From Eurosta solidaginis (lineage: Eukaryota > Arthropoda > Insecta > Diptera > Tephritidae), in NCBI RefSeq assembly GCF_040869045.1, contig NC_090320.1:149318941-149382940 (forward strand): 64,000 nt of DNA, written 5' to 3'. Positions 31,820 through 48,285 of this stretch are shown in pieces. The notes under the pieces are model-generated. The model made no database searches. It was not told the origin of the DNA and was given only the letters and a program-made list of their open reading frames with translations. The position numbers and the translations under genes were made by a program. Within the stretch, counting starts at the first letter, position 1. Each line of letters starts with the position of its first letter.

Positions 31820-33107
31820 ATGCATAATACACGTTCCAATATGAAAGCAGCAGTCAGCGGTAGTGCTATTCAAAGCAAAAAAAACCGGCCAAAAACCTGC
31901 AGATGTTAAAAATGTAACTGCTGCCTCCGTTTACAGTGTTCCTGGTGCACCCAGTCTTTCAGCTGCCACCGATGCCACTTCTGTTCATACCGCTGCCACT
32001 ACCAATTATGCCGCTGCCACTACCAATTCTACCGCTGCCAATATTATCATTGCCGCTCTTGCTACAATCACCGATGTTAGTACAACCACCACCGCTACCA
32101 CTACAAATTCCGCTGCTGTCAGTACGATCACCACCAATGCTATTCCAAATGCCATTACTTTTGCTACTGCCATTGCTGCAACCAATAGGGCTATTTTAGC
32201 TGCTAGCCCTGAAATCGACGTTGGTGATGGCTCATTTATGTTTAACGTCGACCGTGTCACTCCTGGCGTTTCAGTGCCTGCTGTTAGCTACAATGCAACC
32301 CAAATGGTTCCGTCCGATGAGGTAAACCACCTTCAGGAGCAGCTAAAAATTTTGAAACTAAAACTCGAATTAGCAGAGCTGCAATCTCTAGTGCCACAAC
32401 CAGGCATTCATTCTGACATACGCCTCCGTAAATTTATTCATTTTTATGAGCTCGATGGTCCATAAATTCAGTGGTGAAAACCATTACGACATATATAAGT
32501 GATTTTTGTTATTTGAGGACTACGCCGACGCTAATAATTTTAGCGAACGACATAAGTGCTTAGCTCTGAGGCGATGTATGTCTGGCACAGCTAAAGGGTT
32601 CGTATTGAGTCAAGGGCTTGCAGATTATCCAACACTAAAAACGTTACTATGTGCTATGTTCAAACGCAATTGCTCCCGGCAAGAGGTTTACCGCCAGCTA
32701 CGAGCCCGTAATTTAAAATCGTCAGAATCTTGCGTGAGTTACGTCGTTGCAATGCAGTCAATCGCCGCACAATCAGAGATAGCAGAGCAGGAGTTAGTCG
32801 ATTTAATCATTGACGGGATCCCGGACCATACCAACAGCATAAGCATTTTATATGGCGACAACACGGTGAGTGACTTAATCCGACGTATGGAGCGGTATGA
32901 ACAACGGCCGCAGAATGCTACTTTGCGTAGGCCATCGAATACTTCTTCGATACGTACCGAAACAAAAGTGGGTGCTTCGGAAGATCTCTCTGCGGTACGC
33001 TGTTTTAACTGTTCACGTTTCGGGCACTACAAAAGCAGCTGCCCGAAACCACAGCGAGCCAGACGACCAGTGTTGCAGCTGTTTCCAGTGATGAATATGA
33101 TTATCTA
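31820..33107 (+). pseudogene. gag: Gypsy-A Gag
   Basis: The start is likely the ATG at 31820 (MHNTRSNMKAAV). A run of eight A near 31880 shifts the frame into an Ala/Thr-rich stretch (32.0-32.2 kb), then a coiled-coil-like LQEQLKILKLKLELAELQ. A second frame change and a TGA near 32505 precede the capsid part (LLFEDYADANNFSERHKCLALRRC, MFKRNCSRQEVYRQLRAR, LIIDGIPDHTNSI) and a CCHC knuckle CFNCSRFGHYKSSC. Gag coats and packages the element RNA; this copy is broken. Confidence 0.88.
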
Positions 33108-33119
33108 GAATCTAAGCAA

Positions 33120-33771
33120 GAGGTAAATGTGGCCTTTTATGAAAAAAATCGAGGTAGATGGTCACGGTTTACAATTACTATTTCTCCTTTTGATTCCGGC
33201 AATTGAATTAGTATTGTACGGAAATCGATTGCTGAACGATTTCTGAAGCTATCAAATATTGCAAATCCTACGAAATTCGTTGGAGTCGGTAGAAGCAGAA
33301 TTCCTTCTTTTGGCACTATACTGTGTGCAGTAAAATTTCAAGAAACTATTAAACACATCCACATACTTGCAGTTCCAGATGAAACATTAACTATACCTTT
33401 AATTCTTGGTCGAAAATTTTTGACACAATTTAATATTCACTTAATAAAAGTAAATCTCTCCAGCTCTGAATTTAATAAAGGGGAAAATAATCTATTGAAA
33501 ATAAATGAATTTAATAAAGAGAAATGTAAACCTTATGCATATAATTCGATTAATTGTAAAGCTGATGTTAATTGTGGTAAAGTATCGGTTGATAATAAGG
33601 AAATATTAGACAATGTGTGTGAGAAATTCGATCCGGAATACGATGAGAAAAGGGACTTAGGAAAATTTAAAGATTGTTCAGATAACGAATATGATTTGTT
33701 TGATTTAGCCGTGAGGGATATAGATGCCATCGTTGAAAGTGTAGTCCAGTCAGAGGTAGACATAGGACCAG
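33120..33771 (+). pseudogene. Gypsy-A protease and linker, cut by Harbinger
   Basis: Retropepsin-like FDSGN followed by an in-frame TGA, then KFVGVGRSRIPSFGTI and the C-terminal LILGRKFLTQFNIH. A variable acidic linker follows, until the CAG at 33769-33771, where the PIF/Harbinger element begins. The frame happens to continue open into the transposon end, but that part is not gypsy coding. Confidence 0.8.
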
Positions 33772-33859
33772 GGCCCTATTCCACAAAACAACTTATCAAC
33801 TTTTCACTTTGCACTTATCGATTTTTATTTTATTGCAAAGTGAAAAGTGTTTCTGTTCC

Positions 33860-34010
33860 ACAATATTCTTTGCAAATCTCACTATGTGTTGAGCTTAGTT
33901 TTGCAAAGGCTTTGCTAACGGAACATATTTTTGCAAAGACTTTTCACTCTCTGCAAAGTCTTTGCGTTTTATTGAAAAGTGGGCGTGCAAGGTGTTCCAC
34001 AAACCACAGA
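33860..34010. repeat. Subterminal repeats of Harbinger, left side
   Basis: Several copies of a palindrome-like gcaaag-n-ctttgc with cttttca (for example gcaaaggctttgc near 33903 and gcaaagtctttgc near 33955). Similar words recur at 37980-38230 beside the right TIR. They probably serve as binding sites for the transposase or its accessory protein. Confidence 0.55.
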
Positions 34011-34058
34011 AACGTCTTTGCATTTGTTTTGATTCTTTTCACTTTGCATTGTGTGATC

Positions 34059-36016
34059 ATGAGCCGAAAATTAAAAATAGAAAAAAAATTTGCCGTACTA
34101 AAGCTAATTAAAGAAAAAAAAGATATTTTATTTGCTAGCTTTCAAAAGAATAAAGTAAGTATATTTTTATAAAATTATTGTGAGTATTTAGAACATATTT
34201 AAGCTTATATTTCATTTTGAAGGTTAATAAATTAGATAAGCAGGCAGCCTGGGAGGAAGTTTTAAATAAAGCCCAGTCACTGCAACTGGCGTCGGCTCAA
34301 AAAACGTGGACTTATGCGAGGGATAACTTGCTTGGGCTATGGAAGAGTCGAACATTGGTTGTTTTTGTTAGAATATGTATTACTTGTACCTAATACAATA
34401 CACAAATCATGGTGGAGTGCAATAACGGCCACGGAAATAGCGCCGCTGATGAAAGTCAATTAAGACCGCGCGCGATATTTGCCGAGTCATTTTGCATAAT
34501 GTTTGTTGCTGTAGATTGGCTTTTGCTTAATTGTTGTTGTGCATTTTTTGTCTATCTTTCCTACTTTTATCACAGCTGTTTGCGGTTGTTTTTTAAGTGT
34601 CCGAATACAGTGCATCTCAAACTGCTCGTTACTGAATCTATTACTTATTGCTTATTGTCAGTGCTGATTTTCTTTTTAGTAATCTTTCTTACTTTTATTC
34701 CATTTTACTACCTTTAACTTTTTTAATTTTAACTAATATTAATGAACATAATGTCGTGCTTTGTCGTTATAGTTAATGAAAATTTGGAACTAAAAATCGC
34801 CTGAACAGTTTAAAAATATCGTGCGCTTTTTTATTCCAAATTTTCGCCTGTGGCGCTATATTTTATGACTGTGGAAGGCCCACGGGCTTTATTTACTGTT
34901 AAAAGGAAAGAACGCCTGCGGGCTTCATTTCTTCTCCGAAAGGGAAATAACGTCCACTGGAAAAAGGAAATAAAAACCTCGGGTTTTAATGCTTTTTCAA
35001 AGAGGAAATAATGCCCGCCGGCCCTATTTCTTTTTTAAGAAATAACGCCCAGGGCGCTATTTCCGCGGCCGTTATTGCACTCCACCACAAATCATTATTA
35101 TTTTTATTACACAAATCATTATAAAAGACCATAAATACATTCAAACGCAATATAGCATCCCACCAAAAATTTTGAACCTTATATAAGCCTTTTTCCATTC
35201 GCAAATAAGGTTTATACAATAAGGCCTTAAATTCCTAAGGAGTTTTAATAGTATGAAAAATTCCTTATAAAACACCTTATTTTCTTGTACTCATGTCATT
35301 GGGCATAAAGTTTGTCTGAAAGATAACTTATATATAAGGCTTTATGCCCATACAAAATAAGGCTTACAATAGGCATGAGATGCATTTGAAAACTAACGCT
35401 TGCTATTTGAGTGTAGGGTTGCTTCTCAAATGCATCTCAAATTGAGATTTAATAAAAATGTTTGTTGGGTTATGATTGTTTAAAATACACTCAATTCTCT
35501 TTTTACATGGTAGATGCGTTCCTAAAAAAAACGCGTAACAAATTAATTGAGTGTAATCAATAATGTTTTTTGCAGACTAAAAGGGATAACGCCCGAAAAA
35601 CTGGGTCCGCAGGTGGGAAGATTTGCATTATGGATGAAGGAGACTTGGCCATCCTAGATATTCTGGAATCAGACTCAGCTGTGGTAGATGGACTGAATTT
35701 ACCAGAAAGCTATGGAATTTCAGAAAGCCTTCCAACATTTGAGTCTGATTCCATAATATCGAACGCACAGGAAGTACCTGCAAACCCAACTGCACCCATA
35801 AGGAAGAGGAAGAGCTCTACCAAGTTTCCAAGTGAAACTTTGGATAGAGAAAAAAAATGTCGACTGGAGCTTCTCGAGGTTGAAGTTTATTACAGGAAAC
35901 TTCAATGCCTGAAACTGGAGAGGGAGCTTCAACTTCCACCCTCTGTTGTTACAAAAGGACTCACAGTGGCAGAAATTGCAAGGATTGAAAACACCCTTTT
36001 GTTGGAGGAGTTTTAA
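34059..36016 (+). CDS. Harbinger Myb/SANT-like accessory protein, three exons
   Basis: Predicted spliced gene. Exon 1 is 34059-34154 (starts MSRKLKIEKK, donor gtaagt). Exon 2 is 34223-34357 (acceptor ttttgaag; contains VNKLDKQAAWEEV and QKTWTYARDNLLGLWKSRT). Exon 3 is 35576-36016 (acceptor ttttttgcag; starts TKRDNARKTGSAGG). All phases are 0, giving about 223 residues. The N-terminal half resembles the trihelix Myb/SANT-like domain carried by PIF/Harbinger elements, which helps the transposase bind DNA and enter the nucleus; the Trp residues of the helices are visible. The C-terminus is charged and helical (LDREKKCRLELLEVEVYYRKLQ). Intron 2 contains a 676-bp TIR element. The second donor (ttg/gttgtt) is weak and is the least certain point. 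Confidence 0.75.
34411..35086. mobile_element. Non-autonomous TIR element with 9-bp target duplication
   Basis: 676 bp, with 34-bp terminal inverted repeats (left starts ggtggagtgcaataacggcc; one mismatch to the reverse complement at 35053-35086). It is flanked by acaaatcat at 34402-34410 and 35087-35095. A 9-bp duplication is compatible with Mutator-like or Merlin-like families. The right half holds subterminal G/C-rich repeats around ggaaataacgcc and gcccgcgggc-type palindromes. No coding frame. It lies within the accessory gene's second intron. Confidence 0.82.
35096..35575. other. Remainder of Harbinger intron 2 with nested inverted repeats
   Basis: Contains several short inverted pairs, for example gggcataaag with ctttatgccc (about 35310 and 35340) and gagatgcatttga with tcaaatgcatctc (about 35378 and 35437). 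No gene. Confidence 0.45.
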
Positions 36017-36850
36017 ATATAGTTGTAATTTTTTTATTCTAAAAGAATTGTTCTTTTTTCGTTTGTAAATGAACTTGTTATTTTGTTTATTATAATTATA
36101 ATATAGTATTTTCGTCAATAGACATTAAGTGAACTTCATATATTTGCTTTTATATTATAATGGAAATATTTGACCAACAAATAAAAAGGGATATGTCTCT
36201 TCTTGCGAAATCTGAGACCATGGCCAACTACGGTACAGGGTCATTAGTGTGAAGAGGTAGCAAAAACTGGTTTTTCGCCTCTAACTCAAGATTTTGGGGG
36301 TTCCCCGAAAATTTCTTGTATGCAGATCTACCAGAAAGTGGTATGACTTCCAGTGGCGTAACTATAGAAATGGGGGCCCCAGTTGGACTTCCACTAGGGG
36401 CCCTTACCAGGAACATTTTTTGAATCATTCAAACTTTTCGAACAACTCCTTCAGTCTTGCATAATAATTCAAATTACAGATACAGACCAGAATCGCCTAG
36501 GCGTTTGAGCGCCAATAAATGATGATGATGCAGATACAGATGATGTTGAAAAAAAAAAAACGGATCACACGTTAAACATTTTACTTTTATTGTATAATAC
36601 TGAAATAAGAAACAATGAAGAAAATGGACAACATCTAAGATCGCTTCCCAGGTTCTTTTAACTTTCTGTTTCGTAACACCGTGTTATTTATTTTCTGAAA
36701 CCTATATCTAAAACCATAAACCTGCCCTCAAAGGAAACAACGTTTTGGAGTAGAAAAATATCATAGTAAAAAAAAAATTTGTTTCAATACAATATTTTAG
36801 TAGTTTCGTAGTCAAAAAAAAAAACAATTTTAGTATTTCAGTAGTTGATA
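36017..36850. other. Convergent 3' regions of the Harbinger genes
   Basis: Lies between the two stop codons. Holds A/T-rich DNA and a block near 36350-36420 with cagtggcgtaactatag...gggggccc that resembles a TIR of another small element, and a gatgatgat tract near 36520. No gene. Confidence 0.35.
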
Positions 36851-37897
36851 TTATGAAAAGTACTGCAGCAGAGAAGTAAGCCTTTCCATTCCACTCGCAT
36901 CATACATATTATTTTCATTTTCTTCTTCAGCATTTTCCATATCCATTTCACTACCATTGTCTTCAATGGTTTGCATGCTTTCAGTACTTCTTCCGATTCT
37001 GCTGGCAATATTGTGTAAAATGACACAAACAAGGACCACCTTTCCTGCAAACTCAGGCCTCAGTCGCAAATAATTTAAACACGGGAATCTTTCTTTAAGA
37101 ATACCAAAACTATTTTCAATTATACGCCGTGTTTTTTTATGACAACGATTGAAAGCACCTTCAGCAGGATTATCGGGATTTCGGCGTAATGGTGGTATCA
37201 ACCAGTTTTTCAGTCCATAGCCACTATCACCCAAAATAACAGCATCCGGAAAAAGTCTCCATCCATTTTCAAGTCTTTGACTTACAGCCGAATTCCGTAG
37301 CACCCTTGAGTCATGAACGCTGCCCGGCCAACTTGCATTTACACTGTAAAATGTGTAGTCTGGACCGCATATCATCATTACATTCAATGAGTGGTTTCCA
37401 TGCCGATCCACATATACTTCCTCGTGTAATGAAGGCGGATCAATTTTGATGATTGTACCATCAACGCAACCACACACACAAAGGAATCCACCCATAGTAA
37501 GAAACTTTTCAGCAATACTATTGACGTCATCGGGCCACCGCATTGTGTTTTGAAATAAAACGTCTATTACAACATCGACAACTCTATGAACGACTCTGCA
37601 AACTGTTGATTTTGAAACACCATGCATAGCTCCGATACCATGGTACTGGCAACTATTTCCGAGCCAATGTAAGCACAATAGAAGTTGATTTTCAGCCGAC
37701 AAAGCATGACTGCGCTGTGTTTTGTGCTCTAATTTTTCACCAACTTTATTTAAAATGAAATCAACTTGTGTTTGGTTTAAACGGAAGCACTCTTTAAAAT
37801 TAAAGCTTTGTAGTCCCGAAAAATTAATTCGGTCTCTATAATTTCTTCCTATAACCGCGTCTTCACTATCCTCGAACAAAAACTCACGTCTTAACAT
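36851..37897 (-). CDS. Harbinger DDE transposase (HARBI1-like)
   Basis: 348 residues from ATG at 37897 (MLRREFLFED); the frame is open further upstream (to 38014) but this start fits the usual HARBI1-type length. An N-terminal helix-turn-helix region (QLLLCLHWLGNSCQYHGIG, GVSKSTVCRVVHRVV) is followed by the DDE nuclease: GCVDGTII (Asp146), GDSGYGLKNWLIPP (Asp224) and RRIIENSFGILKERFP (Glu261), with HDSRVLRNS and LHNIA typical of the family. It cuts and rejoins element ends at CAG-like trinucleotides. The ORF has no stop or frameshift, and the TIRs and target duplication are intact, so this copy may be or recently was active. Confidence 0.92.
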   Translation of the reverse strand: MLRREFLFEDSEDAVIGRNYRDRINFSGLQSFNFKECFRLNQTQVDFILNKVGEKLEHKTQRSHALSAENQLLLCLHWLGNSCQYHGIGAMHGVSKSTVCRVVHRVVDVVIDVLFQNTMRWPDDVNSIAEKFLTMGGFLCVCGCVDGTIIKIDPPSLHEEVYVDRHGNHSLNVMMICGPDYTFYSVNASWPGSVHDSRVLRNSAVSQRLENGWRLFPDAVILGDSGYGLKNWLIPPLRRNPDNPAEGAFNRCHKKTRRIIENSFGILKERFPCLNYLRLRPEFAGKVVLVCVILHNIASRIGRSTESMQTIEDNGSEMDMENAEEENENNMYDASGMERLTSLLQYFS

Positions 37898-37979
37898 TTT
37901 GCAAAAATTCACTAGTAATAACAATGTGAATTGGCAAAGCGATCGTTTACCTAGCAAATTTTTGACAAACTTGTCAAAG

Positions 37980-38253
37980 TTGGCTTTGCAAACATAGAGC
38001 GCATTTATTTGCAAAGTCTTTGCAAATTACACTTTTCAATATTAGCTTTGCACTTTGCACAAGAGAACGTACGTGGAACGGAAATCGAAAAGAGAGTACA
38101 AAAACTGCAAAGACTTTTCAAATTACACTTATCAACTTCAGCTTATAACTGATCAAATTTTACACTTCTGAGGAACACAAAGTTTTGCAAATTGACGAAA
38201 AATTTGCAAAGTGCAAAGTGAAAAGTTGATAAGTTGTTTTGTGGAATAGGGCC
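37980..38253. repeat. Right end of Harbinger: TIR and subterminal repeats
   Basis: Contains gcaaagtctttgcaaat, ctttgcactttgca and related words, then the TIR mirrored at 33772. It mirrors the left side in motif content, not in exact order. Confidence 0.6.
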
Positions 38254-38256
38254 CAG

Positions 38257-38533
38257 GTTTAAATAAATGTGAACGTGACGCCGTAGCGCAGATCGTAGTT
38301 AGCGATTATTTGTAGGAGCGGCCTAGTCTTTGGCACGTAGATGCCGTCAGCAGAAGCCCATTGTCAGGAAAAGAGTGCTACTATAAAACCTGAGCTGCTG
38401 CCCAACTATAAAGTTAATAGAGATTTTAAAGCGATAATAAACAAATTGCTGTCGCAGATTTGGACGATATAGACATTCAGATTCAGATCGCGCAGAATAG
38501 GGACGAGAAGCTCAAAGAACTTATGAATAAGTT
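38257..38533 (+). pseudogene. Gypsy-A pol remnant between the two insertions
   Basis: After the Harbinger target site the reading resumes as NKCERDAVAQIVVSDY (pre-RT linker), then within about 20 bp jumps to WHVDAVSRSP (end of RNase H) and later VADLDDIDIQIQIAQNRDEK (start of the integrase linker). RT and almost all RNase H are thus deleted near 38320. Stops are frequent. It ends at 38533, where the Ulp1-gypsy LTR begins. Confidence 0.7.
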
Positions 38534-38894
38534 TGTAACGAAGCTTTTCCTTGCCCCGGTGCTTCTTCAGTAACTGCTGGGGTATACTCGCCGTGTCCAA
38601 GGTTCGTTTACAATGAATTTGTATTTCGGGGCGCCTTGCAAATCGTTTTCATTTAATTCACTTTATTGGTAAATTCCCTAAACTATAATATAAAATGTAT
38701 AAAATGTGTATCTATAATTCACTTAATTTCATTGCTTGCTTTATAATTTGTGATGGGCTAGCGGTCCCTCGTGTCCCGTTAGGAACGTTCTGTTAGGGCG
38801 CCGTACTGGTCGCCGTCTAGGTATGTGTGAATGTGTCTCGGTGACGCCTTGCGCCGGCGTGTTCCTATTATGGTTAGTGGCAGTGCTAAGCCTG

Positions 38895-39185
38895 CTGCGG
38901 CCAGCGTCGTATGCCTGCGTATCTCTGCTGCGGCCAACGTCGTATGTACGCGTAGTTCTGCTGCTGCCAACGTCGTGCGTATTCGTGGCTCTGCCAGCGT
39001 CGTATTTTTGGGTGGCTCTGCTGCCAACGTCGTGTGTATGCGTGACTCTGCTGTGGCCAACGTCGTATATTTGCGTAGCTCTGCTGCGGCCAACGTCGTA
39101 TGTAAGCGTGACTCTGCTGTGGCCAACGTCGTGTGTATGCGTAACTCTGCTGGCGTCGTGTGTATGCGTGACTCTGCCGCCGAGT
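38895..39185. repeat. 33-bp minisatellite inside the LTR
   Basis: About nine units of gccaacgtcgtatgtacgcg...tctgctg, mostly 33 bp with 27- or 30-bp variants, also present in the right LTR (about 46400-46690). All lengths are multiples of 3, so several frames on both strands stay open by composition; the apparent 11-residue protein repeats are probably not real genes. Confidence 0.8.
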
Positions 39186-39652
39186 CTTATGGCGATGGCG
39201 CGCGGGCTCGTGACGTTGTGGGCCTTCGCTTAGCGGGGAGCGAGCATAGTTTAAGGCGTTGTAGAGCGGTCAAAACCCACAATCCTCAACCCACGGCTCT
39301 CTCCTATGACGGGAACTGTCTTGCGATGGTCAAAACCGATACGCCTTTCAGATGCCCTTCAATTGCTGCTCAGGTGACAGTCGCAACTTTGCGCCCCGTT
39401 AGGTGAGACCCGTTAGCCTCGGTACAGTCACGTTGTTGCGTTTCACCTCGACTCACTCCTACTGCGGTTGCCGACGTACTTCTGCCGCGGACGACGTTTG
39501 GCTGAGCGCGGGATCACGATGCTGTGGAGGGCGTTTGCTTGCGAGGGAGCAAGCGTGATCTAAAGCGATATGCCTCCACGGAGAGCGCTCCAATAGTAGC
39601 TCCGGTCGCAACCACAACCGCGTGCTCACTGCCTCCTGTCTTCTCGTGTTGC

Positions 39653-39664
39653 CCTTTTTATAGC
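39653..39664 (-). promoter_or_regulatory. LTR TATA box of Ulp1-gypsy
   Basis: The minus strand reads TATAAAAAGGGC within U3. The matching part of the right (5') LTR is deleted, so the promoter that should drive the element is lost while this 3' copy points outward toward Gypsy-A and Harbinger sequence. Confidence 0.6.
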
Positions 39665-39924
39665 CAATGCTCTTGATGTTGCTAGCATAGTTCGTTGCGT
39701 TGCCATGGTTACGGTGTTGCTGTGGCGTGTTGCGGCAACTTGTTGCGCTAGTGATGTTTCTGACACTTGTTTGTGTCCCGTGTTGTGTTGGCAATGTTGC
39801 TAATCGTGTTTTTATGATGTTTCAGAGACTTGTTTGTGTCTCGTGTTGTCTGTGGTACTGCTCCTGTGTTATGGGGTGGTGGTTTTGTGTGGGCCAAATT
39901 AATGGATTCTATTTGGTCCTCACA

Positions 39925-39940
39925 CTCCCCCCCTCCCCAC
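39925..39940 (-). promoter_or_regulatory. Polypurine tract of Ulp1-gypsy
   Basis: The minus strand has a run of G with two A (GTGGGGAGGGGGGGAG) directly against the LTR start TGTGAGG. This is the plus-strand primer of reverse transcription. It follows the stop of the third ORF by about 10 bases. Confidence 0.75.
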
Positions 39941-39949
39941 TTCGGCGAT

Positions 39950-41851
39950 TTAAACCCCCGTGTCTGCTACTTGGATCGTTACCTTCCTTCTCTTCATCGT
40001 GATTTTGTACCTATCGGTTCGGAATTTCACCCGGGGGTTGCACCTCCCTTCGGCGATGTCGGTGAACAACTTTCGTACTTTGTTTGCCACCTCCGGGAAT
40101 TGTTCTAGCGCTGGGCCCTCTGCATCCTCGGCGAGTATTATTGTTCGGCCGTATTCCGGTCCCTCCGCTGGATTTGAACCAGGTTCTGCCTGCGGCGGCT
40201 TATGGCTGGGCTGGGCGCGCACTGTTTTGGCGTGTGTTTGTGCTACAGGATATGGCTGGTCGACGGTAGTGGTGGTATGTGGTCGTTTTCTGTTCGGCGC
40301 ATGGCTGCGGCGGATCGTGGCTAAGATTTCTGTGCGTTTCCGGGCTGCCATCTTCTCCGTAAACGGCTGCTGTATGAGCCCAGGTCCCCCTTCTCGCCGT
40401 CCTGTATAGCGTAGGACTCTGTCGATGCTTTCCAGCACGTATATGCCACAGTCGTTGTCATTGCTCTGCTGCGGCACGGCTAACTGTAACTCCTGGGCCA
40501 TGAAGTCCGAACTCCCGTATCTCTGCTGGTACTCCCACCGCAGGAACTTCAGCCACGCCTCAGTCGCGTATGTGACCTTGCCCCTGACCCTGGAATCGGC
40601 TATCCATATGTAGCGCTCTTGCCAGCACTCCACATCAGCCACGTGGTGGGTCATTTCCCGATACGCTAGCGCCAGTAAGTACCAATGGTTCGATACATTG
40701 TGGGGTGCCAGTATGATGCGCTTACCAAACAGGTCCGTATTCCTCAGCCATCAGTGTATGCGCCGATGGTTTTCATCCTCGTTATCCTTCTGGGTGAGTT
40801 GCCAAATTACGAATGGGCTTAATGTTGTACCCTGTTGCCCGTACATGATCTCCAGTTCCTTCGCCCACGCGTCGATGACCGTGTCGGTGAGCCAGCGGCT
40901 TCCCTCGAGGGAACGGAGATCGGTCGCGTAGAGTGCGATACCTCGTGGTCCCGGTGGGAAACTTATCTCCGGCCCTTCCTTCTCCTGCGCTAATTGCTCA
41001 TCGTCCGATGATAGCTCGATCGTGTCGGCCTGTTTTATTGGGCTATGTGGCCGGTTGGCATTGCCCTTGCCAATTGTGGCGGCCTGGTCTACCCGTACCC
41101 TTCCCAGGATGTTGGTTGTTGTCGGTGGTCCGGTTGTTGGCATGTCGGCCTCGACCGAGGCAACCTCCCGTACTGCTGCGAGTGTGGCGTTCGCAAACGA
41201 AGCAATTGCGCGTCTGGCTATGGATCCGGCGATAGCTGTGTTCACCGTGACTATTCGTGCTGTCTGCGCGTATGAGACGGAAGCGCGTCGGGCGTTCGCT
41301 ACGATGGTGGCTGCGTTTGCCGCAGCTATACGAACGGCGTATACGGCTGCCTTGGGATCACTGTCGGCGTCCTGAGCGGTTGCGCGTGCTGCGGGGCGGA
41401 TATCGTCGGCGGTGGCGTTCCGGGCGTCTGCGTGTGCCTGCATACCGGCGGCGCTGGCGTAGGCAGCGATCGCTGCTCGGTCTTGTTCCGTAGTACGCGT
41501 GCCGTTGGCGTCGGTGTTCGCAGCATTTGGTGGTGTAATGGTGCGTGCGACGTCAACGTACGTATTTGCACGAGTAGTTGCACGCATGTTGTTGACGTCG
41601 CCGCCCGTAGTTTTCAGTGGTGTGATGTTGCGTGCGACGTCAGCGTACGAGTTTGCGTGTGGAGGTCCACGCGCGTTGCTGACGTCGGCGACAGTAGCTC
41701 CCTCCAGCAGCACGACCCTAGGGCGTTTTGCTTCCTCCTCCTCGTAGCGCTGGCGCATATGCTTGGCGCTGTTGGATAATTTGGCGTTATAACCCTCCAT
41801 TGTAGATTGTTGGTTTGTCAAGAAATTCGTAGCAAAAGAACTTGTTGTCAC
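39950..41851 (-). pseudogene. ORF3: Ulp1/SENP-like C48 cysteine protease
   Basis: One frame from ATG at 41851 to a stop at 39950, about 632 codons, broken only by a TGA at 40751-40753 (codon 367). Residues 1-60 are basic and charged (AKRPRVVLLE, possible nuclear signal). Residues 65-240 are Ala/Thr-rich with two related segments (NSYADVARNITP, NTYVDVARTITP). DTIELSSDDE at 276-285 looks like a SUMO-interacting motif. From about 307 a Ulp1-type domain: LRSLEGSRWLTDTVIDAW, SNHWYLLALA (His389), IWIADSR (Asp419), VPQQSNDNDCGIYVLE (Gln462, Cys468). The four residues of the C48 catalytic set are present with normal order and spacing. Ulp1/SENP enzymes cleave SUMO; the target here is unknown. It occupies the env position, between integrase and the polypurine tract. 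Confidence 0.88.
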
Positions 41852-41941
41852 CTCGGTGGTTTGCGATAGAATGACCGGTGCTTGCTTATCCTCCCATCCT
41901 TGGCATTAATTAATATATGTTTGTTTTCCCCTGAATTTATT

Positions 41942-43552
41942 TTAATTTCGATTGTGTTTATTATTTCCTGGTTTCGTGGTCTCTCCGGTCTCCGATGAAT
42001 GGTATGCCTTTAGTTCGGCAATGCTTGCCGTCTTCTCCTTCCCGCTATCGATTTTCCTTAGTTTGACAATTACTGGGGAGACATACCCCAGGATTTGGTA
42101 AGGGCCAACATACTTGGGTGCCAATTTCGCTGCAAATCCCTCCGCAGCCTTTGACAAGTGGTGCTCCTTGGCAAGGACCAACTCGCCGACTACGGGGGTC
42201 CATTTTCTCCGCCGTAGGTTGTAATGACGTGCTTGATCTGATGCTGCCCGCTCCATATTCTGCCTCACTATTCTGAAGGCCTCCTGCATTCTGTTGGACT
42301 TCTCCTCGGCCGTAGCGAGAGCTGCACCCGTCCCAACGTTGACTTCATCGAATAGGGCTCCTGGCAGTCGTGGCTCTCGTCCTTGCACGAGGAAAGTTGG
42401 GCTGTAGCCTGTAGAAGCGTTTATCGCTAGCCCAATTTCCGGGAGGAGGTCGTCCCATCGCTTATGTTTTGAGTTGGTGAGCTGCGCTATGATCCGTTTG
42501 ATGGTCCTGTTTGCTCGTTCTGTTGGGTTTTCTTGGGGAGTATAGGGTGCGGTGTATTGTTGTCGTACGCCAACTTCCTTAAGGTAGCGCTGCCAGAGCG
42601 TGCTACAGAACGGTGCGCCGTTGTCGGATATGAGTACTTTGGGGACGCCAAACCTTGCGAGTATCCGTTCTCTGAAAGCTCGGCGAAGGCCGTCTGCGGT
42701 AGCACGCCTCATGGGGATCAATTCCACCCACTTGCTGAATCGGTCGAAAAATACCAGTAACATGGTGTTTCCGTGTGTAGACCGTGGTAGGGGTCCAACG
42801 AAGTCGACGCAGACCATGGCAAATGGTTCCTGGGCTACCTGTGAGAGCATCTTTCCGGCTGGCTTTTGTTGTGTTTCCTTGTATTTCTGGCAGGATTCGC
42901 ATTGACGTACATACCGGCTGATGTCACGGAACATACCGGGCCAATAATATCGGTTGGCGACTCGTGCTACTGTCCGGCGGATACCCATGTTTCCCGCGCT
43001 TGGTATGTCATGATTTTCCTGTAACACTCGCTGTCTGAGTGGTGTGGGCACACACAATTTCCATGGTACCGCCTCTTCGTCGTGTGACCGGCAGGGAATA
43101 GGGCGGTATAAGTGTCCATTCTGTATCGTATAGTCGGCGTATTTCTCCGGGTTGGTGCGTACCTCGCTGACCCGCTTGTGCCACCACTTGCATTGTGGTT
43201 CCGTCGTCGTGGTAAATCGTAATGCTTCCAGCGGCTGTCGAGATAGAGCGTCCGCCACCAGGTTGAGCTTTCCCTTACGATACTCAATGTCGAAGGTGTG
43301 CTGCTGTAGTTCTAAGGCCCATCGCGCTATGCGGCCAGAAGGGCTCTCAATGGAATTTAGCCACCTTAGTGACATGTGGTCGGTTATTACTTTAAATTTG
43401 TAGCCTTCCAAGTATGGCCTCATCTTACGGATTCCCCAAACGATGGCCAGACACTCCTTTTCGGTGGGTGAATAGTTGACCTCTGCCTGGTTGAGCTTCC
43501 GGCTGGCGTAAGCGATCACTCGCTCGCCCTCTTCTAACTCCTGTGTCAGCAC
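41942..43552 (-). CDS. pol: Ulp1-gypsy RNase H (part) and integrase
   Basis: An uninterrupted frame of about 536 residues. The N-terminus is RNase H (VIAYASRKLNQAEVNYSPTE, VITDHMSLRWL, NLVADALSRQ). The integrase zinc region reads NHDIPSAGNMGIRRT...CESC; the second His of the H-H-C-C motif (usually AGH) is Asn. The catalytic core has Asp (VCVDFVGPLP), Asp (LISDNGAPF) and Glu (PTERANRTIKR). The C-terminal domain has WTPVVGELVLAKEHHLS and KYVGPYQILG. It is one base out of frame with the RT frame, which overlaps it at 43546-43552, most simply a single indel. Integrase inserts the cDNA into chromosomes. Confidence 0.92.
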   Translation of the reverse strand: MLTQELEEGERVIAYASRKLNQAEVNYSPTEKECLAIVWGIRKMRPYLEGYKFKVITDHMSLRWLNSIESPSGRIARWALELQQHTFDIEYRKGKLNLVADALSRQPLEALRFTTTTEPQCKWWHKRVSEVRTNPEKYADYTIQNGHLYRPIPCRSHDEEAVPWKLCVPTPLRQRVLQENHDIPSAGNMGIRRTVARVANRYYWPGMFRDISRYVRQCESCQKYKETQQKPAGKMLSQVAQEPFAMVCVDFVGPLPRSTHGNTMLLVFFDRFSKWVELIPMRRATADGLRRAFRERILARFGVPKVLISDNGAPFCSTLWQRYLKEVGVRQQYTAPYTPQENPTERANRTIKRIIAQLTNSKHKRWDDLLPEIGLAINASTGYSPTFLVQGREPRLPGALFDEVNVGTGAALATAEEKSNRMQEAFRIVRQNMERAASDQARHYNLRRRKWTPVVGELVLAKEHHLSKAAEGFAAKLAPKYVGPYQILGYVSPVIVKLRKIDSGKEKTASIAELKAYHSSETGETTKPGNNKHNRN

Positions 43553-44979
43553 TGCCCCAGGCCGTAGTAACTCGCGTCCGTCTGCAGGGTGAACGTTTTC
43601 GTGAAATCCGGGCGTGCAAGTATGGGTGCTTCAGTGAGTTTCCGTTTGATGATGTCGAAGGCTTCTTGCTGCTCGGTTCCCCATCTCCAATGCTTGCCTT
43701 TCTTTAACAGGGCGGTGAGCGGCTGGCTTATAGCGGCGAAATCGGGCACGAAACGGCGGTAACACGAGGCTATTCCTAGGTATTGGCGTACTTCTTTCGC
43801 GCTGGTCGGTGGCTTCAGTTCCTGAATAGCGGCAACCTTTTCTGGGTCCGTGTGTATCCCTTTATCGCTGACCACGTGGCCCAGGTACTTGAGTTCTTTC
43901 CTAAAGAAATCACACTTCTCTGGATTGATCCGGAGGTTGGCGCGCTGTAGTCGTAACATCACCTCTCTTAAATTTCGGATGTGTTCCTCTAAAGTTGTGC
44001 CTATGACTATAATATCATCCAGGTACGCAAAAGCATGGGGCTCCATTTCTGGCCCAATGACCTGGTCGAGCGCCCTCTGGAACGTTGCGGGTGCCGAGTG
44101 AAAACCAAAGGGCATGACACGCCACTGTAACAGGCCGCGTCCGGGTACCGTGAAAGCCGTGTAGGGGCGACTGTTTGATTCCAGCGGTATTTGCCAGTAG
44201 CCGTTCTTCAGGTCGAGGCTACTTATATATTTCGCTTGTCGTAGTTTGTCCAAGATGTCCTGTATCCTTGGCAGCGGGTATGCGTCGGGAACTGACTTGG
44301 CATTGAGCTGCCGGTAGTCCACGCAAAGCCTCCACTTACCGTTCTTTTTCTTAGCTAACACGATCGGGGCGCTATGTGGGCTGCAGGATGGCTCGATGCA
44401 TCCCTTCGCGAGGAGCTCGTCGATCTCGTTGTTAATTATGCTCTGCATCGCTGGATTGCGCGGGAAATACCGTTGCTTGATGGGACGGTCGTCAGTCAGG
44501 ATGATCTTGTGTTCGGCTACCGTCGTCACTCCGCTCATGGCCTCGAACTTTTTGAGTTCTACTGCCAGAAATTCTCGTATGCGATCCGCCTCGCCTTCTA
44601 TACCACTATGTTCATTGCTGGGTGTGTCGCCGTTAATTCCGTTCCTGACGTCGTACTTGCCGTTCCTCGCACTCGGTGGTGTTATACTCTGTATGGTCTC
44701 CGCCGTGGCTCCAGGAGGCGGTGTGTGCTGAGCAAGGGGTCTGGTTAGCACGAGGTGTCCTCCTCCACATAATATGGCTGCTCCTAGGCTCCCCAACGTA
44801 TCTAGGCCAAGTATAATGTCGTCGATTGCCCCGGGCATCACATGTAGGACTGTGTGCAATGACGAATCTCCGAGGCGTACCTCTTTCCTTACGGCATCGA
44901 AAATCGTAGTGCTGACTTCGTTGGCCATTGTTATTTCGATGGCCACTCTTACCCTCTCCCCGCTTCCATAACTCACCAC
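43546..44979 (-). pseudogene. pol: Ulp1-gypsy protease remnant and reverse transcriptase
   Basis: 477 residues. The start region holds the C-terminal part of a retropepsin (IDDIILGLDTLGSLGAAI), but the active-site D-[ST]-G is not visible; upstream frames give TAVGSRSFVSATLA where it should be. RT is full: GCIEPSCSPHSAPIVLAKKK, WRLCVDYRQLN, PLPRIQDIL, SLDLKNGYWQIPL, MPFGFHSAPATFQR, catalytic FAYLDDIIVIG, LKYLGHVVS, LGIASCYRRFVPDF, and the beginning of RNase H (LQTDASYYGLG), where the frame breaks at about 43550. Confidence 0.9.
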
Positions 44980-45029
44980 GTGATTCGCGAGGGTGGCTGA
45001 AACGAAGCTCCTTGAGCCGACTGCGGTGA

Positions 45030-45976
45030 TGAAGGTATAGTTTTGTCACCAACGACGTGTCTCGCTATTTCGCGACGTGATCCATCTGATGTACATCGGT
45101 AACCTTCGTGGATACCTTCATATTCCTCGGCGAGAGAGATGAGTTCTCCTAGGGTGTTGAAATCTCTTCGGCGAATGTAGAGTAAATAATCGGGGTGGCC
45201 AGGCGTTGCTCGTTGCTGTATCCGGCGTGTCTCATCAAGCTTTGTATCCCTAGGACATAACCTTTATATCTTTCGCGGGCGTGCTGCCTTCGTTGCCGTA
45301 TTTCGTCCTCGAGACGCTCGAAGTACCTGGCTGGTAGAAAGAAGCTTAAAAAGTCGCGCTTGAAGGTCGTCCAGTTGCTCTAGTGTACGTTGTTATTGCG
45401 GTACCATTGAAGAGCGGTGCCACCTAGCAATTCGGGCATCGTTTTTGGGAGCAAGTCTACGTTTAGCGTATAGACATCGGCTAGTTCTTCCAGCTGTTCG
45501 ACGAAAGCTAGAGGGTCCCATCCACCTTCATATTTCACTGACCACTTTCTTACCTGGTCGATGATGGGTGCGAATATAACGGTCGGTACCTGAGATGCAC
45601 CGTTGGGTGGTACCGCTACTCCGGATGATGCGCACTGTTGTGGGGGTACTGTGTTCCTGGGAGGGAACGCAAACTGGTTGTGCTCAGCTGGTCTATCGGC
45701 GATATTCATGGCTCCGCCTCCGTTCGGCGGGATCGGTGTCTTAGACTCATTTTCCTCACTCGTGTTTGCTGTATTTTCCTTCCTATACGCGGCTTCTAAG
45801 GATAAAAATTTTGTGTGTATTTCCGAGTCAACATTTGCTTTTGAAGCCATGGCTGCTATGCGCTTTCTGATTTCTCGGGTGGTGCCTGTCTGCTCAATGC
45901 CCAGCTCCTGTGTAATGGATATCAGCTGCTCCTTTGAAATATTGTCTAGCCACGTGGTGTCAATCTGGTCGGCCAT
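45030..45976 (-). pseudogene. gag: Ulp1-gypsy Gag with N-terminal SAP-like motif
   Basis: Starts at ATG 45976 (MADQIDTTW). Residues 10-43 (LDNISKEQLISITQELGIEQ, then TGTTREIRKRI) fit the SAP consensus, two helices around a Gly turn, a DNA/chromatin-binding motif. A Pro-rich linker and capsid (VRKWSVKYEGGWDPLAFVEQ, LPELLGGTALQWY-like) follow. A TAG at 45380-45382 interrupts; reading continues as NWTTFKRDFLSFFLPARYFE, RLEDEIRQRRQHARERYKGY, IQSLMRHAGYS, then further frame changes to about 45030. No CCHC knuckle is found, so the nucleocapsid seems lost or deleted. About 60 bases separate the ATG from the primer site. Confidence 0.78.
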
Positions 45977-46030
45977 TTTTCTGTTAGGTTTCTAGTCAGG
46001 AATGTTCCTTCTGACGTTGTACGATTTGCA

Positions 46031-46050
46031 GGGACCCTGCTCGGGCGCCA
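46031..46050 (-). promoter_or_regulatory. Primer binding site of Ulp1-gypsy (tRNA-Lys type)
   Basis: The plus strand ends in ctgctcgggcgcca, the 3' end of a tRNA-Lys. It lies two bases from the LTR start TGTAACGAAG at 46053, the standard position for a Ty3/gypsy element on the minus strand. Confidence 0.88.
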
Positions 46051-46052
46051 AT

Positions 46053-47208
46053 TGTAACGAAGCTTTTCCTTGCCCCGGTGCTTCTCCAGTAACTGCTGGG
46101 GTATACTCGCCGTGTCCAAGGTTCGTTTACAATGAATTTGTATTTCGGGGCGCCTTGCAAATCGTTTTCATATAAATTCACTTTATTGGTAAATTCCCTA
46201 AACTATAATATAAAATGTGTATCTATAATTCACTTAATTTCATTGCTTGCTTTATAATTCATGATGGGCTAGCGGTCCCTCGTGTCCCGTTAGGAACGTT
46301 CTGTTAGGGCGCCGTACTGGTCGCCGTCTAGGTATGTGTGAATGTATCTCGGTGACGCCTTGCGCCGGCGTGTTCCTATTATGGTTAGTGGCAGTGCTAA
46401 GCCTGCTGCGGCCAGCGTCGTATGCCTGCGTATCTCTGCTGCGGCCAACGTCGTATGTACGCGTAGTTCTGCTGCTGCCAACGTCGTGCGTATTCGTGGC
46501 TCTGCCAGCGTCGTATTTATGGGTGGCTCTGCTGCCAACGTCGTGTGTATGCGTGACTCTGCTGTGACCAACGTCGTATATTTGCGTAGCTCTGCTGCGT
46601 CGAACGTCGTATGTAAGCGTGACTCTGCTGTGGCCAACGTCGTGTGTATGCGTAACTCTGCTGGCGTCGTGTGTATGCGTGACTCTGCCGCCGAGGCTTA
46701 TGGCGATGGCGCGCGGGCTCGTGACGTTGTGGGCCTTCGCTTAGCGGGGAGCGAGCGTAGTTGAAGGCGTTGTAGAGCGGTCAAAACCAGCTTACCCACA
46801 ATCCTCAACCCACGGCTCTCTCCTATGACGGGAACTGTCTTGCGATGGTCAAAACCGATATTCCTTTCAGATGCCCTTCAATTGCTGTTCAGGTGACAGT
46901 CGCAACTTTGCGCCCCGTTAGGTGAGACCCGTTAGCCTCGGTACAGTCACGTTGTTGCGTTTCACCTCGACTCACTCCTACTGCAGTTCCCGACGTACTT
47001 CTGCCGCGGACGACGTTTGGCTGAGCGCGGGATCACGATGCTGTGGAGGGCGTTTGCTTGCGAGGGAGCAAGCGTGATCTAAACCGTTGTAGAGCGGTCA
47101 AAACCTGCTTACCCACAATCTTCAGTCCACGACTTTCTCCTATGAAACGCACTGGCTTGAAATGGTCAAAACCGATATGCCTTCCAGAGCGCTCCAATAG
47201 TAGCTCCG
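46053..47208 (-). mobile_element. Ulp1-gypsy 5' LTR, truncated
   Basis: Matches the left LTR from TGTAACG through gctccaatagtagctccgg and then breaks at about 47208, lacking the outer U3 part with the TATA box. Gypsy-A integrase sequence starts directly beyond. It also contains the 33-bp minisatellite and an extra segment repeating agagcggtcaaaacc (46776, 47091) not present at the same place in the left copy. Confidence 0.85.
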
Positions 47209-47211
47209 GTA

Positions 47212-48285
47212 GCTTCGGAAATAGGTCACTTAGATACAGAAAAGTGCTATAATCAGATACGTAAAATTTATTGGTTCGAAAACATGAAAGATAAAATAAA
47301 CAAATTCATACACAATTGTATAAAATGCATTGTCTACTCTGCACCAGATCGTTCTAATGAGCATAATATGTGTAATATACCCTAAAAGCCTATACCTTTT
47401 GACACTCTTCATTTTGACCACTTTGCCGCCCTGCCGGCAATTAAGTCGAAACGCAGGGACATACTCGTTGTTATCGATGCTTTCACGAAGTTTGTCAGGT
47501 TGCACCCCGTAAATACTACTAGTACTAAAGAAGTGTGTTGTTCTCTAGATAAACACTTCAGTTATTATAGCCGCCCATGGCGTGTCATAACCGATCGAGG
47601 TACTTGCTTCACCTCTCTCGAATTTAGTGACTATCTGCTGAAGAGGAACATAGGCCATGTGAAGGTAGCAGTGGCATCGCCACAAGCCATTGGTCAGGTC
47701 GAGAGGATGAATCGTGTTCTAAAGGCCATGTTGAGTAAACTTACTCAGTCCACCGAATATGCTGACTGGACTTCACATTTGTCCCAGATAGAATATGCCA
47801 TGAACAACAGTGTCCACTCCACAACGAAGCTTTCACCAAGTGAACTGCTCTTTAATGTAACCCAACGGGGATGCATTGTCGATGAGTTTGCGGAACTTTT
47901 AGAAGATAAGCTGTCCACTGAAACTACTAGGGACCTTGATGGAATCCGACAGCGTGCACTAGGAAATATAGAACGATCGCCAGAGTACAATCATCAGTAC
48001 TTCTTAAAACACAGTGTACCTACCAAGTCATATTCGATTGGAGATTTTGTTGTAATAAAACACGTAGACACAACGGTAGGAACTAACAAGAAACTTATTC
48101 AGAGATATAGGGGTCCATACGTTATACATAAAGTGTTGCCCAACGACCGCTATGTTATAAGAGATATAGAAAATTGCCAACTGACACATTTGCCATACGA
48201 CGGCGTTGTCGAAGCCATTAAAACTCGAAAGTGGTGCTTGCCCAATAATATTGTAACCGAATCTCCGCAGTCATCAACAGTTTAA
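47212..48285 (+). pseudogene. Gypsy-A integrase
   Basis: Continuation of the outer element. The zinc-binding part (GHLDTEKCYNQIRYV, FIHNCIKC) runs into HFDHFAALPAIKSKR with DAFTKFVRLHP (first Asp region), VITDRGTCFTSLEF (second Asp) and SPQAIGQVERMNRVLKAML (Glu), then a long C-terminal part (SIGDFVVIKHVDTT, RYRGPYVIHKVLPNDRYVI) to a stop at 48285. An in-frame stop lies near 47382; from 47500 the frame is open for 261 residues. The right LTR follows 65 bp later. Confidence 0.9.

Follow-up and report, generated by a model that had tools for sequence, protein, structure and literature searches.

A stretch of 64,000 nucleotides of Eurosta solidaginis contig NC_090320.1 (hereafter the window) contains an LTR retrotransposon with a third open reading frame, ORF3, whose product resembles cysteine proteases of the Ulp1/SENP (C48) type. 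This raises the question whether ORF3 is a genuine gene of the element, what its product would act on, and what the element would gain from it. The element lies on the minus strand and comprises, in 5' to 3' order, the following parts.

46053..47213, minus strand: truncated 5' LTR, which is missing about the outermost 315 nt and abuts other DNA
46035..46050, minus strand: stretch TGGCGCC... after the 5' LTR, which we take to be primer-binding-site-like
45149..45991, minus strand: gag remains, broken (Retrotrans_gag, E 1.3e-4, below the cut-off)
43546..45045, minus strand: part of pol, with aspartic protease (weak, E 0.045) and reverse transcriptase (RVT_1, 5e-40), in a frame overlapping the RNase H-integrase frame
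41942..43630, minus strand: part of pol, with RNase H (RT_RNaseH, 1.5e-32), H2C2 zinc finger (7.4e-21) and integrase core (rve, 4e-15)
39950..41800, minus strand: ORF3, 616 codons plus stop, with its ATG at 41798-41800 and, in this copy, one in-frame TGA at 40751-40753
39925..39940, minus strand: polypurine tract, immediately upstream of the 3' LTR
about 38534..39924, minus strand: 3' LTR, complete (TGTG...TACA), with internal tandem repeats

The order protease, reverse transcriptase (RT), RNase H and integrase between LTRs, together with a polypurine tract and a primer-binding-site-like stretch, is that of Ty3/gypsy elements (Metaviridae). The aspartic protease, weak in the window copy, is clear in another copy, L044 (PF13975, E 7.1e-10). 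ORF3 does lie where the original prediction had placed it, between the integrase and the polypurine tract of a Ty3-type LTR element, i.e. in the env position. The boundaries of the element are less clean than had been claimed: the 3' LTR is complete, but the 5' LTR is truncated at 47213. No target-site duplication was seen at the window element, and none is expected because of this truncation. Its two LTRs are 96.6% identical over their shared 1,044 columns (18 mismatches), which, with an assumed fly mutation rate, suggests that the element inserted roughly a million years ago or more recently. The window copy has since decayed, with gag, pol and ORF3 all interrupted. ORF3 does not appear to be an errantivirus-like envelope gene, since a Pfam search with the 616-aa ORF3 of another copy, L024, with E values up to 0.1 considered, yielded C48 only and no env glycoprotein.

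Several other features were seen in and around this copy. The gag N terminus (45380-45991) has a weak SAP-like match (E 0.01, below the cut-off), and the tandem repeats inside both LTRs (38892-39181 and 46403-46692) have a spacing of partly 33 bp. Beside the element, inverted repeats of 60 nt, 92% complementary, flank a 391-aa minus-strand frame (36851-38026) that we take to look like a Harbinger-type transposase, so that 33767-38258 is possibly a DNA transposon. Frames with a CCHC zinc knuckle at 32503-33708 are perhaps gag remains of another LTR element.

ORF3 had been described as a frame of 632 codons. The frame, its motifs and their order are as described, but its length is not: the ATG common to 33 of 34 aligned copies (it is missing in L018, and three further loci are unaligned) corresponds to 41800, and we therefore count 616 codons. 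Six natural copies are open from this conserved ATG and encode 553-625 aa. Within ORF3 of the window copy, we recognized the following features, where counts of residues refer to the window and 35 loci elsewhere in the genome.

41717..41764, minus strand: basic N-terminal stretch K-x-M-R...A-K-R-P-R, which we presume to be NLS-like; a similar stretch occurs wherever proteins from Eurosta, Bactrocera and Rhagoletis extend to this point
40997..41023, minus strand: SUMO-interacting-type motif TIELSSDDE, a hydrophobic core with a Ser/acidic tail, conserved across copies
40397..40897, minus strand: Peptidase_C48 (PF02902) catalytic domain, 63.5 bits, profile positions 1-188 of 217, with one TGA inside (genome search, same frame)
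40685..40687, minus strand: catalytic His codon (NHWYLL), present in 35/36
40595..40597, minus strand: catalytic Asp codon (IWIADS), present in 35/36
40466..40468, minus strand: oxyanion Gln codon (VPQQ), present in 36/36
40448..40450, minus strand: catalytic Cys codon (DCGIYV), present in 33/36

The four catalytic residues occupy the very codons that had been named, when numbered from 41851, and the TGA, which falls inside the C48 domain, is indeed the sole interruption of the frame. The order is His-Asp-Gln-Cys, with the Gln six residues before the Cys, and the His is followed by a Trp in 34 of the 36 copies. As assessed by Pfam, the check that the original prediction had called for, the assignment to Peptidase_C48 is sound. 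The 266-aa piece after the TGA scores above the cut-off (E 7.9e-12, 45.9 bits against 20.7, profile positions 71-188 of 217), and so do two natural open copies, L024 (E 8.9e-18, 65.3 bits) and L010 (E 3.8e-22, 79.6 bits). The piece before the TGA has no Pfam match on its own.

SENP7 and Ulp2 were among the matches when the half of ORF3 after the TGA was compared with solved structures using phmmer. A profile built from 12 natural copies matched SENP7 best (7.5e-17), followed by SENP5 (1.1e-10), Ulp2 (1.2e-10) and SENP1 (1.2e-7). For a candidate member of the Ulp2/SENP6/SENP7 branch, SENP7 holds the two best rows, yet SENP5 stands just above Ulp2 in what is a profile ranking and not a tree. The host's own SENP1-type gene, L001, matches SENP1 at about 2e-63. 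Because L001 is so close to SENP1 and the ORF3 profile is best on SENP7, ORF3 does not derive from that host gene by recent copying. An AlphaFold model of P0001, a relative of ORF3, was computed from four sequences and discarded (mean pLDDT 33).

Upstream of the catalytic domain, the SUMO-interacting-type motif (SIM) reads (T/I/V/E)IELSS followed by acidic residues. Ile-Glu-Leu is present in all 31 copies that are readable there (31 of the 36); one Ser of the pair is kept in 29 of these and the other in 30. In an alignment of seven rows (four from Eurosta, two from Bactrocera and one further sequence), IELSS is invariant in 7/7 and forms the first invariant columns; that there are none before it is due partly to gaps, because some rows start late. 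One subfamily of copies, C, has a second, weaker repeat of the motif. A SIM-type motif outside the catalytic domain is a trait of the Ulp2/SENP6/SENP7 branch, present in ORF3 as a sequence motif. In Ulp2, SENP6 and SENP7 such motifs are thought to guide the enzyme to SUMO or poly-SUMO chains, according to the available part of PMC12687455. The motif beside the C48 domain, which the original prediction had left unmentioned, is the strongest pointer to SUMO, over other ubiquitin-like proteins, as the probable partner of ORF3. The same source reports one SENP-like (C48) enzyme with NEDD8 as its substrate, and the PDB matches of the host gene include bacterial relatives that act on ubiquitin, so ORF3 might instead be a C48 enzyme for NEDD8 or ubiquitin. 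With SENP7, SENP5 and Ulp2 as best structural relatives and a SIM beside the domain, we consider this improbable. Judged by sequence, ORF3 very probably encodes an active SUMO protease.

Is ORF3 then a regular part of the element? Searching the genome yielded at least 150 C48 matches (150 scored of 330 candidates), all above the cut-off and several in open frames of at least 600 codons. The best of them is the host SENP1-type gene, so at least one host gene is among the 150. With the piece after the TGA as query, there were at least 145 matches (144 scored of 663 candidates), with identities mainly of 91-97% and 48-55%, and a few of 61-82%. We sampled 35 loci, taking the even-numbered rows from 2 to 40 and from 122 to 150 among the 150 genome matches, and added L044 (row 9, chosen for its long frame). 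Of these 36 loci, 32 are preceded by an integrase and 30 have an RT domain; an LTR starts no more than 60 nt downstream in 32, and integrase and LTR start occur together in 28. In L022, L035 and L044 the match is restricted to the part before the RT domain. A strict pattern of purine tract plus LTR start was found at 19/36 loci, and a looser LTR match downstream at 35/36. The copies fall into three subfamilies: A, with the window and 11 loci; B, with one; and C, with 23 in two sublineages, C1 and C2. In L025, L033 and L036 the C48 region seems chimeric, with a C1-like front and a C2-like back, which suggests recombination between subfamilies.

The original prediction had allowed for a chance capture in one copy. 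With an integrase upstream at 32/36 loci this is refuted, but derivatives without ORF3 do exist. Among the matches listed, at most 20 of 64 RTs of subfamily A (93-100% identical), and at most 56 of 86 RTs at 88-91% identity, lack a C48 match 1.5-6.5 kb downstream. ORF3 is deleted in L045, and L046 is without SIM and C48. The L045 junction was found in full length only in L045 itself and in one 87% match (40 scored), and since it is nearly confined to this locus the loss looks private. Because such copies exist, C48 is neither universal nor strictly needed in cis; they are expected both of a function supplied in trans and, equally, of a dispensable one. The reverse loss also occurs. In L022 (C6) and L044 (C5), on two chromosomes, RT and integrase are gone with an identical junction and gag and ORF3 are retained, each copy having its own LTR pair (98.1% each). 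Tandem repeats with a spacing of ~57 nt lie near the site of pol loss in both (L022, 2805-3373; L044, 2867-3327; reverse complement). L027 (1920-6743, reverse complement) consists of LTR-ORF3-LTR with no gag-pol, its 5' LTR being joined 45 nt before the ORF3 start. We considered a copy of a spliced mRNA and rejected it, as other copies have no AG at the junction; a deletion at short homology fits better.

Selection was assessed from dN/dS. For the C48 domain the ratio is 0.134 (95% CI 0.07-0.23) and 0.147 in two A-B pairs, and 0.124, 0.173 and 0.185 between C1 and C2, with upper confidence limits between subfamilies of about 0.30 or less. The linker gives 0.74 and 0.83 between A and B, with limits that include 1, the ORF3 tail 0.35-0.54, and integrase 0.42-0.44 (A-B) and 0.15-0.22 (C1-C2). 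In A-C comparisons, C48 and RT are saturated at silent sites (C48 pN 0.23, pS 0.79). Within subfamily A the median ratios are 0.70 for C48, 0.71 for RT and 0.91 for integrase, and regions across pol and ORF3 range from 0.65 to 0.91, except for the 35 codons before the ATG, which yielded no usable value. Ratios of this kind are expected from decay after insertion and lend no support to selection. A dN/dS near 1 across copies had been put forward as a sign against the original prediction: the ratio is far from it between subfamilies (0.12-0.19), and only the comparison within subfamily A, at 0.70, comes closer. Judged by these ratios, the C48 domain is under purifying selection.

The region of the ORF3 start behaves differently from its surroundings. 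Two comparisons of A with C give identities of 87% and 90% for a 150-nt bin over it (about 41710-41860), against 71-86% for the RNase H-integrase bins, and the codons before the ATG have a silent divergence of 0.18 and a non-silent one of 0.16 (A-C). Either a patch of recombination or a non-coding signal under conservation may account for this.

Relatives of ORF3 extend beyond Eurosta. Profile searches of a database of 5.8 billion proteins, in which the best 7,996 and 7,993 candidates by shared words were scored, gave 4 and 6 matches among those listed. These relatives come from Eurosta, Bactrocera oleae, B. dorsalis (two), Rhagoletis pomonella and R. zephyria, and otherwise there is one further sequence. 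The whole catalytic set is present in P0001-P0003 only; P0004 and P0006 are cut short, P0005 stops before the Cys, and P0007 is an N terminus only. Wherever the proteins of the three tephritid genera reach that far, the order of motifs is the same. From the SIM to the Cys region, identity is 51-60% between genera; within Eurosta, it is 62-68% for A against C and 80% for C1 against C2. A homologue search with the piece after the TGA alone gave no match. Viral contigs gave 22 pattern matches with no relative among them, and phage records contained no relative. Two relatives bear public names that may be misleading, 'sentrin-specific protease 7-like' for P0002 (Bactrocera oleae) and 'translation initiation factor IF-2-like' for P0006 (Rhagoletis pomonella).

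These data bear on the simplest explanation, that ORF3 is a functionless passenger, a fragment of a host SENP-like gene captured once. Copies without ORF3, the near-neutral linker and the ratio of 0.70 within subfamily A are what a passenger would leave, but the low C48 ratios between subfamilies with their upper limits, the relatives from three tephritid genera, whose motifs follow one order as far as the proteins reach, and the retention of ORF3 when pol was lost already contradict it, and we regard it as barely credible. ORF3 is almost certainly a gene of the element that is maintained by selection.

C48 domains are known from other selfish DNA. Ginger1 DNA transposons combine a Gypsy-type integrase with a C48 domain, but they move by cut-and-paste, have no LTRs or RT, and carry C48 as the C terminus of their transposase; Mutator-like elements with ULP domains are likewise DNA transposons, with another transposase (both from the available part of PMC2836005). 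The nematode non-LTR retrotransposons NeSL and Utopia are retroelements with a Ulp1-like cysteine protease, which sits at the N terminus of the element protein in elements that have a restriction-like endonuclease and no LTRs, as described in the available part of PMC4640811. Conversely, an enzyme in the env position is found in bdelloid LTR elements, although there ORF3 encodes other enzymes (GDSL or DEDDy) and the hosts are rotifers (PMC5408684, available part). Host Ulp2, SENP6 and SENP7 share with ORF3 the C48 domain and the SIMs outside it (available part of PMC12687455), and SENP7 gives the best match to the ORF3 profile, but they are cellular genes and ORF3 belongs to a retrotransposon. 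Among the papers that our literature searches listed, outside Repbase and most subscription journals, none described an LTR element with a C48 gene. C48 in Ginger1, Mutator-like and NeSL/Utopia elements, and other enzymes in the env position of LTR elements, are thus known; for C48 in an LTR retrotransposon we found no earlier case among those papers.

What would such an enzyme do for the element? We infer SUMO cleavage, SUMO specificity, nuclear action and an anti-silencing role, as follows. ORF3 would be translated from element RNA, and its basic N terminus would likely take the protein into the nucleus. There, IELSS and the acidic residues after it, together with the weaker second copy in subfamily C, would guide the protein to SUMO or poly-SUMO chains, and the His-Asp-Gln-Cys site would then cut SUMO off host factors, e.g. 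the piRNA silencing machinery that depends on SUMO. Transcriptional silencing guided by piRNAs involves SUMO and the ligase Su(var)2-10 in Drosophila (PMC7676866, available part). A transposon gene that counteracts silencing has a parallel in VANC of VANDAL transposons, with the difference that VANC is from plants and its anti-silencing action is reported, whereas that of ORF3 is predicted (PMC5735166, available part). We give about an even chance to anti-silencing being the main role of ORF3.

The main rival keeps an active SUMO protease but directs it at Gag, Pol or the integration complex of the element itself, or at repair factors of the insertion site, rather than at silencing chromatin. 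Ginger1 has a transposase with a fused Ulp1 domain, for which its authors propose a function in transposition or repair (available part of PMC2836005), and a single frame of 1,238 aa in L044 spans gag, aspartic protease and C48, which would place C48 in the particle. We had considered this long frame as a fusion of pol and ORF3, but it proved to be gag-ORF3 with pol deleted; fused pol-ORF3 expression was also rejected, because, in those subfamily-A copies whose ORF3 is open, two stops lie between it and integrase. These two stops, and the conservation of the basic N terminus, speak against a target within the element or its repair, which we hold to be unlikely although worth serious attention. 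ORF3 could also process the element's own polyprotein with no need of SUMO. A C48 domain alone is no proof that SUMO is the substrate, and related proteases of some large DNA viruses process the viral polyprotein. The element, however, has an aspartic protease of its own, clear in L044, and the conserved SIM would have no evident use, which makes a processing protease highly improbable.

The reading that we put forward is that the third gene of this Ty3-type lineage encodes a predicted SUMO-removing protease, which likely counteracts SUMO-dependent silencing of the element; as a whole, we see it as evenly balanced between right and wrong. More tentatively, and with rather more doubt than confidence, we propose a tephritid-wide Ty3 lineage that predates the divergence of these flies and uses a SIM-guided SUMO protease in the env position to strip SUMO from piRNA-directed silencing as a counter-defence, shared by a pol-less satellite made of gag and the enzyme. 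If ORF3 is such a SUMO protease, kept by selection and bearing a SIM, the element would offer a directly testable example, in animals, of a transposon that attacks the SUMO step of silencing, for which natural copies with or without the catalytic residues would serve as controls. Some fruit-fly genes annotated as sentrin-specific protease, as in Bactrocera oleae, may be transposon genes.
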